A DNA stretch of 64,000 nucleotides from Halothermothrix sp. (GTDB lineage: Bacteria; Bacillota; Halanaerobiia; DY22613), in assembly GCA_016841825.1 (NCBI GenBank), contig JAENYK010000004.1, forward strand, positions 310,001-374,000, in the 5' to 3' direction. Both the position numbers and the translations under genes were made by a program. Shown here piece by piece: positions 52,343 through 57,857 of the stretch. Positions within the stretch are counted from its first letter, which is position 1; every line of letters starts with the position of its first letter. The notes beneath the pieces were generated by a model, which saw only the letters and a program-made list of their open reading frames with translations, was not told the DNA's origin and ran no database searches.

Positions 52343-53113
52343 ATGTCAATCGTAAAAATCGTCTTAATCTTAGTAACAGGGACTGCAGCGGGATTTTTGA
52401 ACACTATAGCTGGTGGAGGTTCTCTAATCGCCATGCCAGTATTAATTTTTCTTGGACTTCCTTCCGCTGTAGCTAATGGAACTAACCGAATTGCCCTGAT
52501 GACGCAAAACCTAGTTGCTATTACTAACTTTAAACGTAAAGGTTTCTTTGACCTCCAATTCAGCTTAAAATTAGGTATTCCGGCAGTATTGGGCTCGATT
52601 ATTGGTTCCAGATTCGCCGTTGGGCTACCTGATGAGATTTTTAATAAAATTCTTGCTGTAGTTATGGTCATAGTTCTCGCTTTAATTATCTGGAATCCAG
52701 GGAAATCTAAAAAAAATGAATCCGGGAAAGTACAACTCTCCACTAAGCATCAGCTTGGTGCGATGATTGCGTTTTTCTTTGTTGGCTTCTACGGAGGATT
52801 TATCCAGGCGGGTGTGGGTTTTATCATTATCGCCACCCTTTCAGTAATCACCGGGTTATCTCTGGTCAAAATTAATAGCCTGAAAGTATTCGTCGTCGCA
52901 ATGTATATGTTTTCATCACTAATGGTTTTTATAGTCAGTGGAAAAGTTAATTGGATATTAGGATTGACTCTGGCTGTAGGAAACTCTCTGGGAGCCTATT
53001 TGGGTAGTAACTTCGCAGTTGCTAAAGGAGATAAATGGATACGGATTATTTTAGTAGTGGCAGTACTGACTATGGCGGCTAAATTGTTGGGATTGTTCAG
53101 TTTTTTAGGCTAA
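52343..53113 (+). CDS. TSUP (TauE/SafE)-family permease (256 aa)
   Basis: I chose ATG 52343 (MSIVKIVLILVTG), with GGGGAGGG at correct spacing; the ATG at 52325 contains that site. Eight hydrophobic segments in two repeats. The family signatures GFLNTIAGGGSLIAMPVLIF near the N-terminus and GFYGGFIQAGVGFIIIATLS in the second half are intact. Such carriers export or import small sulfur- or carbon-containing anions (sulfite, sulfonates, sulfoacetate). Substrate not determined here. Single gene with its own terminator. Confidence 0.88.
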   Translation: MSIVKIVLILVTGTAAGFLNTIAGGGSLIAMPVLIFLGLPSAVANGTNRIALMTQNLVAITNFKRKGFFDLQFSLKLGIPAVLGSIIGSRFAVGLPDEIFNKILAVVMVIVLALIIWNPGKSKKNESGKVQLSTKHQLGAMIAFFFVGFYGGFIQAGVGFIIIATLSVITGLSLVKINSLKVFVVAMYMFSSLMVFIVSGKVNWILGLTLAVGNSLGAYLGSNFAVAKGDKWIRIILVVAVLTMAAKLLGLFSFLG

Positions 53114-53122
53114 TGATTACAT

Positions 53123-53158
53123 AAAAGTCCGACTCCTTAGATAGAGTCGGACTTTTTT
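53123..53158. terminator. Bidirectional terminator between the TSUP gene and the RiPP precursor
   Basis: AAAAGTCCGACTC (53123-53135) pairs perfectly with GAGTCGGACTTTT (53144-53156), with T-runs on both strands. It serves the two converging transcripts. Confidence 0.92.
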
Positions 53159-53225
53159 AAAGAATAATTATTAAATTAGTAGATACAATCACTGGGAGAA
53201 ATATTATTATATATTGCAATATGAG

Positions 53226-53405
53226 TTAGAATGTTTGCATACCAATATTTACCGCACAATTCAGAGCACAAGCCATGGTGCAAGTACCCTTGCAACCAAT
53301 TGAACAACTTGCTGTATAACAGCCTGATTCACAGGTTGCAGCCATGCAGATTCCAACTGGCGCAAGTTGTTTATCTTGTTTCACGATTTTCGACTTTAAA
53401 TACAT
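53226..53405 (-). CDS. Cys-rich RiPP precursor peptide with CXXX repeats (59 aa)
   Basis: ATG 53405 lies behind a strong site (AAAGGAGGTG). The peptide has a leader of about 19 residues (MYLKSKIVKQDKQLAPVGI) and a core with eight Cys at positions 20, 25, 29, 34, 38, 42, 46 and 50, mostly spaced every four residues (C-x3-C), with Ala, Gly, Ser and Thr between. This is the layout of the 'Cys-Xaa-Xaa-Xaa repeat radical SAM target' family. Expected modification by the upstream radical-SAM/SPASM enzyme is thioether crosslinking (ranthipeptide or sactipeptide type), which is inferred. It is the last gene of the cassette, 87 nt after the ABC transporter gene. Confidence 0.88.
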   Translation of the reverse strand: MYLKSKIVKQDKQLAPVGICMAATCESGCYTASCSIGCKGTCTMACALNCAVNIGMQTF

Positions 53406-53492
53406 CTTTTAACACCTCCTTTACAATAATTTTTTATTTTCCCCGGAGAAAGCTGATTTCTATAATCAATTCGACTTTCCATTGAAATATGA

Positions 53493-55298
53493 TCAGCTAG
53501 TGAGTGAACCATCCTGTAGTTCATTTGCTTTGTTATAGCTACTCCATTGAGAATGATACAATCTCTGATATGTTGGATTGCCTTTGATTAACTTTTGATG
53601 ACTTCCTCTCCCCACCACCTGCCCTTTATCAATAACGATAATCTGTTGAGCATTAATTATTGTGGATAAGCGATGGGCGATGACGATAATGGAGTGGTCT
53701 GGAATCAGATTATGCAGCATTTTCTGAATATATTCTTCTGATTCTCCATCTAAAGCTGATGTAGCTTCATCTAATAGCAATATCTTTGAACCTTTTAACA
53801 AAGCTCTAGCAATAGCTAATCTCTGTTTTTGACCACCCGATAAACGTGTACCCCGCTCACCTATTATGGTATCATATCCCTCGGGCAGAGTTTCGATAAA
53901 ATGATGGATATATGCTTTTCGCGCCGCTTCCTGAATCTCTGCAAAAGATGCCCCATTCTTCGCCAGAAGAAGATTCTCCTTAATCGAAAGATTAAATAAG
54001 AATGGCTCCTGGGGAACTATAGCGATCTGTCTCCGAAGATAATCTAGATGTAGATCTCTAATGGAATGCCCATCAAACAAAATCTCTCCTTTATCTGGCT
54101 GATAAAATCTTAAAGCCAGATTGAAAAGAGTCGTCTTCCCACTACCGCTGGCTCCTACCAGAGCTGTCATCTGGTTCGGAAGTGCTGTAAAACTAACCTC
54201 TTCCAATACAGATTTATCTTCATCATATCTAAAACTAACCTGATTGAACTCAATCTTACCCACAGTCTGCTCAGGAATTATTCCATCTCTCTTTTCGGGC
54301 GGCAACATAAAATTATCCAGAAGGGTAAAGATCCTTTCTAAAGCTACCATCGCTTGCTGAATACTGGAATTCAAACTGGCTATTCTACCCAGAGCACCAC
54401 TAAACTGACCTGCATAATTATTAAATGCTACATAAGTACCCAAAGTCAAAAAACCACCGATTATTAAATAAGCACCTACTCCCATAATTACTAAACTGGT
54501 AATCCCATTCAACCACATAGTCGATAATCCCGACAATGCACCAATTACATCTATATTAATCCGCAAATGAAATATATTTCTCGTCCAGGTCATAAATTTA
54601 CTTTTAATCATTTTTTCAATGTTTAGAGCTTTAATCTCCCGCACCCCACCGAAGGATTCAGCAAGGAAACTATAATAGTTATCATTCAATACCCGCATAT
54701 CCTTATTTTTTCGCCGTAATATCTTCCCAAACCAACCCATCACCACATACGTTATCGGAAATGCTAATATCACAATCCAGGATAAAGTCGTACTAATCGT
54801 AAAGATCATAAAACCAATTCCTATGATTCGGGCTATGTCCAAAATGATTCTCATTGCCTGAAAAGTAATTATATTACTTAGTGTGCCCACGTCACCTTCC
54901 AATCGAGAGATAATCTCTCCCACCCGAAGTTCATCATAGGCTTTAACCGGTAGATTTAGAATCTGAGCGTATAGATCCCGCTTAATATCAAGAATAATCT
55001 TGTTACCTAATAGATCAGATAGGTATGTCTCCACTAGACTAATTACACCATTACCAACGATCAATCCCAGAATTAAAAATATAGAGTGCCAGACCAATTT
55101 CAAATTCTTGCTAATAATATGGTCAATAACCCCACCATAGACCAATGGTTGAAAAAGCTCTAAGATCATTCCGGCCAATATAGCGACAAAAGTTGCTACA
55201 AAAAGTAGCATATGAGGTTTTACATAACTGAAAGCTCGTTTAAGTAATTTTAGATCGTCTTTTGATAGATAGATAAATCTATTTTTCTTTTCTGTCAT
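53493..55298 (-). CDS. ABC exporter (fused membrane and ATPase domains) of the RiPP cassette (601 aa)
   Basis: Six transmembrane segments (about 20-320) then an ATPase with Walker A ALVGASGSGKTTLFNL, signature RLSGGQKQRLAIARALL, Walker B KILLLDEATSALD and H-loop VIAHRLSTI. It has no N-terminal C39 peptidase, so another protease must remove the leader. Located between the maturase and the precursor, it should export the modified peptide or its core. It begins 100 bp after the maturase stop, behind a hairpin, with a weak binding site (GTAGGTAG). Confidence 0.9.
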   Translation of the reverse strand: MTEKKNRFIYLSKDDLKLLKRAFSYVKPHMLLFVATFVAILAGMILELFQPLVYGGVIDHIISKNLKLVWHSIFLILGLIVGNGVISLVETYLSDLLGNKIILDIKRDLYAQILNLPVKAYDELRVGEIISRLEGDVGTLSNIITFQAMRIILDIARIIGIGFMIFTISTTLSWIVILAFPITYVVMGWFGKILRRKNKDMRVLNDNYYSFLAESFGGVREIKALNIEKMIKSKFMTWTRNIFHLRINIDVIGALSGLSTMWLNGITSLVIMGVGAYLIIGGFLTLGTYVAFNNYAGQFSGALGRIASLNSSIQQAMVALERIFTLLDNFMLPPEKRDGIIPEQTVGKIEFNQVSFRYDEDKSVLEEVSFTALPNQMTALVGASGSGKTTLFNLALRFYQPDKGEILFDGHSIRDLHLDYLRRQIAIVPQEPFLFNLSIKENLLLAKNGASFAEIQEAARKAYIHHFIETLPEGYDTIIGERGTRLSGGQKQRLAIARALLKGSKILLLDEATSALDGESEEYIQKMLHNLIPDHSIIVIAHRLSTIINAQQIIVIDKGQVVGRGSHQKLIKGNPTYQRLYHSQWSSYNKANELQDGSLTS

Positions 55299-55401: not shown

Positions 55402-57540
55402 CTATTTTAAATTAATCACTACCCTTTCAAACGGATCATAATAATCAATTTCCGGGAATATCTGATCAATTGTCCGGGAAGTAATCTGTTTTAAGATATT
55501 CTTTTCATCCAGCATCCCAGCATATTTCCGTCCTACTTTTCGCTCAACATGACTAATGACACATTGAGTTTTACCGGGTATCAAAAATTCTTTAGTCTGC
55601 TTTTTGTTCAGATAAACACAGCGTCGACAATGGTACGCATCACACGCTGTACAGATTGGTGACTTGTCCAACCTTAAGAAATCCTGATAGTCAAAGGTAA
55701 CTCCATCTTCTATTGTCCCTATAGCTTCACTATTATCATAGTAGAATGCAGGGCAGATAAAAAATTCTCCATTTGGAGCCAGAGTATAGCTATCTACTCC
55801 AGCATTACAATTGGCCATCTTATCCAGATTAAACATATCTGACAATACATTTAACTCTAAATATACACCTTCACTCAGTTTATCTGTCAAATACTCAGCC
55901 ATCTTGATTAACTCTTCCTCATAAATCGCTAAATCTTCATTGGTTATTTTGTTCGCTTCCTCAACTACTAAATTGACCCTGGGGTATTTACCAAAAAGTT
56001 TTTGCAAATTTTTAGCCAGACCCTGAAAATTTTTGGGCTTAACCAACATCAATCCAATATCGCCCTCCAAAATCTCTTCAACTCTGTTATCATAGACCAA
56101 AATACTCTCCTTTGTCTGGTCAATATCTCCACCTGAATGAATCTGAAGCACATCTAAATCTTTAATCAATTCTTTTTGTTCAACAGTTAATCCCTCAGCA
56201 GGAACCATTAATACTGGTGTGTAGAAATTATATCTGGCATACTCCAATCCCTTTTTTAAAATATCCAGATCCATCTTAATTTCTTTACTATCATCAGGAG
56301 TATAAGTACAGTGACGGGTAGCTTTATTGGATAACATCAAATACAGGTGATCTTTCCTGATTCCAGAATTCTTCCTTTCAATGCCTGCTACTCGTTTTAG
56401 TTTAGCCCAATAATAATCATTGGCTCTTACTCTTGCTTTGTGCATATCACAAATATATGTAGCTCTTTCATAAATAGTATCAATTCTAGCCTCATCATAA
56501 TTCAAACCTTGACACCATGCACAACCAGTAGCTACCTGACAGTCAATGCACTTCTGAGGGCTCTGTTTTTCCAGATTCAATACCAAAAATGGCCTCAATT
56601 TATCATGATCATAACCATTATCAATATCACCAACAACATATCCTTCACGTTTGTTTAAAGAATAACCTATAAAACGCACACACGGATAAAACTTACCCTG
56701 ATAATCAACAGCTAACATTTTTCCAGCACCACACCAGTTATGCTTCAGATTATCTTCGTTTAAAGGAGATCCAATAGAGTCCGAAAACATAGTACAGTTA
56801 AACTCGTTCCATAGACCATTGTCTATAATGTGATCAGCTAATTCTCTCAGTTGATTTTCTAAAATTAGATCATCACCTTCTTGCCAATCGTCCTCAAAAA
56901 TAACGTTGGCAGGAATATTCTTAATACCTAACCCGTATAAACTTAATACACTATCTTTCAAGTGAATTAAGTCATCATGAGCAAAAGTTGCTTTGGTACC
57001 AGAATTGGGATATTGTTCTAACCAGAGTGGTACATTTTTAACCACATCATCATAAGAACCGGAACCATCAGCTTTGACCCTCTGTAAATCATGTTTAGTC
57101 TTGTTGCCATCGATACTGATACCAATACTCAAATTGTTAAGATTTTTTTTGATGTATTGCTGTACCTTCGGATCAGCATACAGCACACCATTGGTAGCCA
57201 TATTGAAACGATATGAATCAAACCATTTGTGATCTAATCTAAACATCTCTTTTTTGATATAATCTGTGATCTGATCGATTAATTCGATCGCCAGGAAAGG
57301 CTCACCACCAATAAACTCCCAGATTACACTGCTTTGAGGAAACTCTTCCTGGTTATTAAGGATATAATCAACAGCTTTTTTGGCAGTCTCAAAAGTCATC
57401 TTGTGATCTTTGTTTTTACCGGTGATGTAACAGTATTTGCAGAGCAGATTACAGTCTTCTGTAACAACAAAAGTAATGTTTTTAACATCACTTTCCTTCC
57501 AGGTGTCCATTTTACTACCCATCAAGTAATTTTCTGTCAT
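55402..57540 (-). CDS. Radical SAM/SPASM peptide maturase of the CXXX-repeat type, apparent two-module fusion (712 aa)
   Basis: The N-terminal half has the radical SAM 4Fe-4S motif C30-x3-C34-x2-C37 (TEDCNLLCKYCYITGK), GGEPFLAIELIDQI and a SPASM-like Cys set (NWCGAGKMLAVDYQGKFYPC, then CIDCQVATGCAWCQ). The second half (about 395-712) lacks CxxxCxxC but ends in another SPASM-like cluster (ANCNAGVDSYTLAPNGEFFI, CTACDAYHCRRCVYL, TQC). From memory, CXXX-repeat loci usually have these as two proteins: the radical SAM peptide maturase and a separate CXXX-repeat maturase. Here they seem fused. It should act on the Cys-rich precursor encoded downstream. ATG 57540 follows GGGAGGG. Confidence 0.85.
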   Translation of the reverse strand: MTENYLMGSKMDTWKESDVKNITFVVTEDCNLLCKYCYITGKNKDHKMTFETAKKAVDYILNNQEEFPQSSVIWEFIGGEPFLAIELIDQITDYIKKEMFRLDHKWFDSYRFNMATNGVLYADPKVQQYIKKNLNNLSIGISIDGNKTKHDLQRVKADGSGSYDDVVKNVPLWLEQYPNSGTKATFAHDDLIHLKDSVLSLYGLGIKNIPANVIFEDDWQEGDDLILENQLRELADHIIDNGLWNEFNCTMFSDSIGSPLNEDNLKHNWCGAGKMLAVDYQGKFYPCVRFIGYSLNKREGYVVGDIDNGYDHDKLRPFLVLNLEKQSPQKCIDCQVATGCAWCQGLNYDEARIDTIYERATYICDMHKARVRANDYYWAKLKRVAGIERKNSGIRKDHLYLMLSNKATRHCTYTPDDSKEIKMDLDILKKGLEYARYNFYTPVLMVPAEGLTVEQKELIKDLDVLQIHSGGDIDQTKESILVYDNRVEEILEGDIGLMLVKPKNFQGLAKNLQKLFGKYPRVNLVVEEANKITNEDLAIYEEELIKMAEYLTDKLSEGVYLELNVLSDMFNLDKMANCNAGVDSYTLAPNGEFFICPAFYYDNSEAIGTIEDGVTFDYQDFLRLDKSPICTACDAYHCRRCVYLNKKQTKEFLIPGKTQCVISHVERKVGRKYAGMLDEKNILKQITSRTIDQIFPEIDYYDPFERVVINLK

Positions 57541-57557: not shown

Positions 57558-57857
57558 TTAGTACTCTAAAAATATTTCACAAGTTTGAAAATTAATTCTC
57601 CAACTACCCTGTGAATGACTTTTCCATTGATATTTCTCACCCATCATGTCCCACCAATTCTGAAACTTTGCACCTGTTTCGCCAATATCTTTAATTACCT
57701 TCTCATATAAGAGATCGTCCACCTCACCATTTTGAGTACTATTTTTTAATATCATCACCAATTCATTTAAAGCGTTTTTACGATTAAATAAAGTCTGGAT
57801 CTGATCGCGTTCTTCAAGAGTTACCTGGCCCACTTTTTCCAATCTTTTTTCACTCAT
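57558..57857 (-). CDS. CXXX-repeat peptide modification accessory protein (99 aa)
   Basis: Small acidic helical protein (QVTLEERDQIQTLFNRKNAL, NELVMILKNS) with a C-terminal WWDMMGEKYQW-like segment. The opening V-T-x-E-E-R-D-x-I-x-x-L-F-x-R-K-N-A-L-N-E-L pattern matches my memory of the CXXX-repeat peptide modification system proteins that accompany these maturases. It may act as the leader-binding partner. ATG 57857 follows TGAGGAGGAAATCAG. It stops 17 nt before the maturase, so it is the first gene of the cassette. Confidence 0.8.
   Translation of the reverse strand: MSEKRLEKVGQVTLEERDQIQTLFNRKNALNELVMILKNSTQNGEVDDLLYEKVIKDIGETGAKFQNWWDMMGEKYQWKSHSQGSWRINFQTCEIFLEY

Follow-up and report, generated by a model that had tools for sequence, protein, structure and literature searches.

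The window analysed here (64,000 nucleotides of Halothermothrix sp. DNA) carries on its minus strand a run of four genes in the order TIGR04116 helper (57857 to 57558), maturase (57540 to 55402), ABC exporter (55298 to 53493) and, last, the ORF of a short Cys-rich peptide (53405 to 53226). On the other flank a TauE/SafE gene ends convergently towards this last gene. The features of the locus are as follows:

53123..53156, no strand assigned, perfect 13-bp inverted repeat with an 8-base loop and A/T runs on its flanks, read by eye
53226..53405, minus strand, CXXX-repeat precursor peptide of 59 aa, with leader MYLKSKIVKQDKQLAPVGI and a core that starts at Cys20
53413..53422, minus strand, ribosome-binding site AAAGGAGGTG, 7 nt 5' of the precursor ATG
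53493..55298, minus strand, ABC exporter, membrane domain PF00664 plus ATPase PF00005
55402..56385, minus strand, maturase C-half, radical-SAM/SPASM fold without CX3CX2C and with a second SPASM (TIGR04119, 234.6 bits, cut-off 150)
56341..57540, minus strand, maturase N-half, radical SAM core C30-x3-C34-x2-C37 plus SPASM (TIGR04115, 559 bits, cut-off 350)
57558..57857, minus strand, helper, CXXX-repeat modification system protein of 99 aa (TIGR04116, 103.3 bits, cut-off 50)

The precursor ORF runs from an ATG through 59 aa to a stop codon. A 59-codon gene with a strong ribosome binding site and Cys at positions 20, 25, 29, 34, 38, 42, 46 and 50 had been proposed here in an earlier note; the gene is present at those coordinates, on the minus strand (the strand is added here), AAAGGAGGTG lies 7 nt before the ATG, and the Cys positions are exactly as noted. 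They make up five C-x3-C and two C-x4-C steps within the 59-aa peptide, the target repeat of the CXXX system. The longest chain of Cys at 4-5-residue spacing in the open stretches of all six frames of the window is 8, while 150 dinucleotide-preserving shuffles gave chains of 2 (twice), 3 (120 times), 4 (27 times) and 5 (once), so the Cys chain of the window peptide is not due to chance. The residues between the Cys had been described as small ones only, which is overstated: 15 of the 23 are A, G, S or T, and the other eight are M, E, Y, I, K, M, L and N. The core holds one acidic residue for its eight Cys. The same note had suggested a helix with the Cys along one of its faces. In an ideal alpha helix at 100 degrees per residue they fall at 200, 340, 20, 160, 200, 240, 280 and 320 degrees (mean resultant 0.36), and with the eight Cys spread round the helix this model of the core is ruled out by geometry. 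The window precursor has no RR motif. Against TIGR04117 (Syntroph_Cxxx, cut-off 50) it scores 14.2 bits (E 0.034), the best stretch being residues 21-51, and it is absent from the matches to TIGR04118 (AC3_0185, cut-off 35) at E<=10; among its relatives, one paralogue (L098) scores 14.7 and the L075 precursor 33.4 with TIGR04118. The precursor and its paralogues thus stay below every NCBIfam precursor cut-off, which we count against the explanation favoured below. The 13-bp inverted repeat is likely a terminator common to the convergent TauE/SafE gene (plus strand) and the precursor (minus strand); it was not among the results of a consensus scan. A promoter scan of positions 53050-53700 returned 3 sites against 3.1 expected and is uninformative.

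Next to this gene the earlier note had expected a radical-SAM maturase, as for a RiPP-type precursor, and the TIGR04115 score of 559 bits (cut-off 350) bears this out. The N-half of the maturase has seven SPASM Cys (C270, C287, C331, C334, C340, C343 and C364) in invariant alignment columns. Its best PDB relative is CteB (5wgg, E 1.6e-39), with an alignment that begins at CteB residue 92, past the N-terminal RRE that CteB possesses according to the available part of PMC8326336. After TIGR04115 and TIGR04119 the best score of the N-half is 226.9 bits to NF047865 (PapB family), below the cut-off of 340, and the maturase reaches 142.5 bits with TIGR03974 (SCIFF), below the cut-off of 425. The TIGR04119 (CXXX_matur) match covers residues 498-707 of the same protein and is above its cut-off. 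In fragment numbering the SPASM Cys of the C-half are 193, 211, 245, 248, 253, 256 and 275. Profile comparison of the C-half with the N-half by hhalign gave a probability of 93.6 and E 2.1e-7, and a predicted model of the C-half aligned to CteB 5why across 266 residues, the greater part of the model (Z 16.9, rmsd 3.8). This model averages a pLDDT of 69.8, and five of the seven SPASM Cys fall in the parts that score below 50 (183-193 and 242-272), a point counted against our interpretation.

Both halves were present in 12 systems, all found through the maturase or the helper: the window, L052, L053, L054, L070, L071, L074, L075, L076, L077, L130 (plasmid pAPRE01 of Anaerococcus prevotii) and L132 (a faecal contig filed as phage). 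The N-half carries CX3CX2C in all 12 (L054 has two N-half genes, of which one was checked). The C-half lacks this motif in 12 of 12 and keeps the SPASM motif CX2CX4CX2C in 12 of 12. One Cys near the start of the C-half is invariant in the nine sequences aligned and matches the third Cys of the SAM-cluster motif by hhalign. Given the profile and predicted fold match, the loss of the motif, the retained SPASM and the aligned third Cys, the C-half is, as judged by these comparisons, a radical-SAM relative that lost its SAM-cluster site (two of the three Cys) and kept the auxiliary-cluster site.

No C39 leader-peptidase domain was found in the exporter, and no peptidase family is among its Pfam matches; it is 45% identical to the exporter adjoining the fused maturase of L075. 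The helper was modelled with AlphaFold2 (pLDDT 91) as a strand, a helical hairpin and a beta-hairpin. Foldseek found no match of this model to PDB structures at E<=0.001, and a sequence search of the helper against the PDB gave nothing below E 0.25. An RRE domain has three strands and three helices; the predicted topology of the helper is unlike this one, and the helper is a doubtful RRE candidate. By gene content the locus belongs to the CXXX-repeat radical-SAM RiPP system, for which NCBIfam took the name from the target peptides, since the precursor ends a run of TIGR04116 helper, maturase and ABC exporter.

The note had also raised the possibility of precursor paralogues elsewhere in the genome, and three were found. 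A DNA search of the host genome for five Cys codons spaced by three codons detected runs on contigs C16, C24 and C38 besides the window, each inside an ORF containing a MYLK[ST]K start. M1, Y2, L3, K4, K6 and all eight Cys columns are invariant among the four precursors, which are otherwise 29-38% identical to one another. Just before the ATG of the three orphans stands AAAGGAGGTG in two cases and GGGGAGGTG in C16. Three diverged paralogues keep the eight Cys columns and the MYLK-x-K start, which shows the precursor to be a coding gene subject to constraint. Six places match the six-codon MYLK[ST]K start: four are the precursors, and the other two are ORFs of 12 and 34 residues without a ladder. 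The 34-aa ORF (C22:645428-645445, L108) has a MYLKSK start and two Cys (NCEWGC) and is possibly a decayed precursor or a chance match. A profile of the four precursors found no fifth member in the host genome at E<=1 and no match below E 0.0014 in 60 relatives; two weak pattern matches in the host genome, C22:307554 and C38:145291, lie in no qualifying ORF. The genes beside the orphans are ordinary ones: a helicase and a subtilase at C16, a nucleoid-associated protein and a pullulanase at C24, and a GGDEF/HD protein and DegV at C38. The 5.08-Mb host genome has 24 radical-SAM matches, some of them clustered (C18, C30), which suggests many peptide-modifying systems.

The earlier note had taken a lack of conserved Cys spacing beside the maturase in relatives as the result that would speak against it. 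In general the spacing is kept: in 10 of the 12 systems the locus itself includes a peptide with three or more C-x3-C steps. The gap from Cys to Cys is four in 67-95% of cases (16 precursors; the L130 and L132 peptides are not counted), and the ladders of the precursors read range from 4 to 63 Cys. Near the L054 maturase there is no repeat peptide, and its genome has four such peptides elsewhere, which range from 98 to 294 aa in length and from 15 to 63 in Cys number. One relative does show the adverse outcome: L053 has a fused maturase, and its nearest Cys-rich ORF has one C-x3-C step, which is counted against our interpretation. That 54-aa ORF (L053:10305-10469), just 3' of the fused maturase and with other spacing, is a possible off-pattern substrate. 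The L053 genome has no TIGR04116 match.

TIGR04116 is above cut-off in 8 of 295 genomes (nine places) of the order of the Prevotellaceae genome and was found in 1 of 296 genomes of the phylum of the Spirochaetales genome, with no match in 14 control genomes. A loose TIGR04119 search matched 270 of 398 genomes of the host's phylum, the host genome alone passing the cut-off; such loose matches are uninformative on distribution because the profile evidently catches ordinary SPASM enzymes. Among 60 relatives plus the host, TIGR04119 matched in 11 of 61, and again the host alone was above cut-off. L055 to L058, four of the seven loci that the maturase scan detected, and the faecal contig L133 were left out of the 12-system count; their maturases are 32-39% identical to the N-half, with no TIGR04119-like or TIGR04116-like genes in the stretches examined, and the whole precursor-like ORFs of L055, L057 and L133 have a longer leader followed by a mixed CxxC/CxxxC core. 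Also outside the count are L072:9856-10470 and L073:9725-10069, TIGR04116 genes of one genome with no TIGR04115-like maturase nearby; a 92-aa ORF with 10 Cys lies directly 5' of the L072 gene. In the Spirochaetales genome the C-x3-C DNA pattern gave 209 and 236 matches against 104 and 71 in the reversed control, and hence ORFs alone were counted there. Its Tat-signal proteins with Cys ladders (for example L104:2132-3016 and L103:8210-9924) carry a Cys at roughly every fourth residue, to a maximum of 63; several of them stand in tandem, and their contigs are not the one with the maturase.

The maturase is fused in 4 of the 12 systems (the window, L053, L075 and L130) and split in the other eight. 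Three of the four fused systems have a short precursor without RR motif and an ABC transporter alongside. In split systems the RR motif was present in 11 of 11 precursors measured, and the L132 precursor shows SRREFF. Directly after the Spirochaetales maturase cluster come tatA (TIGR01411, 52.5 bits, cut-off 53.9) and tatC (166 bits, cut-off 132.7). In a tree of N-halves a single branch separates fused from split maturases; this division recurs in 96% of bootstrap trees, though the support of the branch is only moderate (77/61). As far as sequence features go, short leaders and, in most cases, an ABC exporter accompany fused maturases, and twin-arginine (Tat) signals accompany split ones. The Tat system transports folded proteins, and Tat signals therefore fit a product that is cross-linked in the cytoplasm. 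A lipobox-like stretch follows the Tat-type signal in L076, L077, L103b and L104, hinting at surface anchoring over a free bacteriocin.

We consider it likely, with good though not full confidence, that a single CXXX-repeat RiPP maturase has four substrates, the window peptide among them, and that the ladder of this peptide is cross-linked and exported. The MYLK[ST]K N-terminal stretch would act as the recognition leader. The N-half would generate a 5'-deoxyadenosyl radical and form thioether (sulphur-to-carbon) links from the core Cys, with the C-half as a non-catalytic partner for substrate grip or electron relay and the TIGR04116 helper aiding leader binding or assembly. A precedent for a helper half is the TrnC/TrnD two-enzyme complex, in which only one radical-SAM activity is strictly essential (available part of PMC12093266). 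The product would exit via the adjoining ABC exporter, the three orphan precursors on other contigs would be modified in trans, and in the split-maturase relatives a similar Cys ladder would be made in the cytoplasm and exported folded via Tat. Most likely the cross-linked product is exported and has a structural, binding or signalling role, not that of a bacteriocin; this role is the weakest step of the proposal.

Ranthipeptides and sactipeptides both have Cys sulphur bonded to a carbon of a non-Cys residue, according to the available part of PMC8326336. It is from enzyme kinship by itself that the core Cys here should carry sulphur-to-carbon links, because the X-X-X positions offer no fixed acceptor residue. 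Among 28, 119 and 140 triplets in three groups, no residue is fixed at X1, X2 or X3; for X1 the commonest is S (19-29%), for X2 either S or G (21-34%) and for X3 either G or S (18-29%). The sulphur may thus be bonded to an alpha carbon, to a variable S/T/G/N neighbour or to another Cys. The four thioether bridges once suggested for the window peptide do not agree with this chemistry: related enzymes bond the Cys sulphur to a non-Cys carbon, which would allow as many as eight links from eight Cys. One bolder scheme, which we regard as a long shot, has each Cys sulphur joined to the next Cys (i to i+4) or to nearby backbone, giving a rigid cross-linked rod, longer or shorter according to the number of repeats. 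It is compatible with the data because Cys is the sole conserved core residue and there is no fixed acceptor. If true, one radical-SAM engine with a "dead" half would turn the products of scattered genes into a family of rods, which cells would export in folded form, some groups through Tat and others through ABC.

Several other readings of the core have to be weighed. A PapB/freyrasin-like ranthipeptide is very improbable; in that scheme every Cys would bond to an Asp or Glu that follows at the fourth position (CX3D/E), through the beta or gamma carbon of that acidic residue. PapB does act on CX3D/E motifs (available part of PMC9413430), and its family (NF047865) is the top scorer of the N-half after TIGR04115 and TIGR04119 at 227 bits, but this is below the PapB cut-off (340), position four after most Cys is another Cys, and the one acidic residue for eight Cys in the window core compares with none in the L075 core. 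With too few acidic residues, CX3D/E chemistry as a general scheme is ruled out. The acceptor residues of sactipeptides vary, and the variable X positions, rich in G, S and T with no fixed residue, would suit a sactipeptide-like product with Cys sulphurs bonded to alpha carbons and any residue as acceptor. This is possible, if on the unlikely side, as the closest families of the maturase are makers of non-alpha thioethers (PapB, SCIFF/CteB, QhpD) and not classical sactisynthases. It is distinctly unlikely that the Cys remain thiols (or are only locally changed) in a ladder that binds metal or iron-sulphur and is loaded or tuned by the maturase. Cys alone is conserved along the core of ladders with 4 to 63 Cys, and Tat signals, some with a lipobox-like stretch, suit folded cofactor-bearing surface proteins; yet a thioether-type radical-SAM/SPASM enzyme is present in 12 of 12 systems (partly by construction of the search), and no metal-transport or redox genes were seen in the window's run of genes.

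The other question is whether one enzyme acts on all four peptides. The three orphans could instead be relics, or be acted on by other radical-SAM enzymes of the host genome, a view we find unlikely. Only one place among the 24 radical-SAM matches is above the TIGR04115 cut-off, no maturase of this kind lies beside the C16, C24 or C38 orphans, and the C24 orphan is about 9 kb from another radical-SAM gene (L099:14508-15878), which is nearest to the PapB family, under its cut-off, and is counted against our reading. The orphans, however, have MYLK[ST]K and eight Cys columns in common with the operon precursor despite the 29-38% identity, contigs C16 and C38 are without any of the 24 matches, and AAAGGAGGTG (two) or GGGGAGGTG (C16) stands just before the ATG. 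The simplest reading is that a single maturase probably serves the four scattered precursor genes; we infer rather than observe this because 23 weaker radical-SAM matches exist, any of which may possibly act on the orphans, and they too are counted against it.

The window peptide is a genuine precursor, and the RiPP system to which it belongs has a name but is, within the literature searched, experimentally unstudied. No experimental paper on a CXXX-repeat system and none on a Tat signal combined with a radical-SAM precursor was found in the open literature, a search that reaches few subscription journals and preprints. The locus provides a compact four-gene version of the CXXX system and four natural substrates with one leader. 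It makes testable how radical SAM acts on a core without fixed acceptor, why a motif-less radical-SAM/SPASM half persists in 12 of 12 systems, and whether cross-linked peptides leave the cell folded, some groups using Tat and others ABC exporters.

The NCBIfam CXXX system (TIGR04114, TIGR04115, TIGR04116, TIGR04117, TIGR04118 and TIGR04119) resembles the locus in having a maturase and helper above cut-offs with a C-x3-C target adjoining. The window differs in a precursor that scores under the precursor cut-offs, carries a leader of its own (MYLK[ST]K) and belongs to a set of four scattered genes, and in the fusion of the two maturase parts in one protein. The plasmid pAPRE01 (NC_013164.1) likewise has a short precursor with Cys at C-x3 spacing, a fused maturase ("CXXX-repeat target family"), a short helper-like ORF and an ABC transporter, but only four Cys, another gene order and maturase halves 49% and 31% identical to those of the window; it supplies a four-Cys minimal substrate. 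This plasmid is conjugative, its CXXX precursor is annotated as a hypothetical protein (L130, 44-2517), and class III lanthipeptide genes lie alongside. SCIFF/CteB (5WGG, 5WHY) shares radical SAM plus SPASM, and the C-half is modelled with the same fold; unlike the window peptide, SCIFF precursors have six Cys in forty-five residues, and CteB is not known to have a second half. PapB (freyrasin) and QhpD are among the top-scoring families to the N-half after its own, but the N-half is under their cut-offs and their Asp/Glu acceptors are nearly absent from the window system. TrnC/TrnD (thuricin CD) are also two radical-SAM proteins in a complex with only one activity strictly essential; both are still active radical-SAM enzymes, whereas the window C-half has no cluster motif. 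What is new here compared with these systems is a probably trans-acting four-precursor family, two export architectures and a motif-less second radical-SAM/SPASM half.
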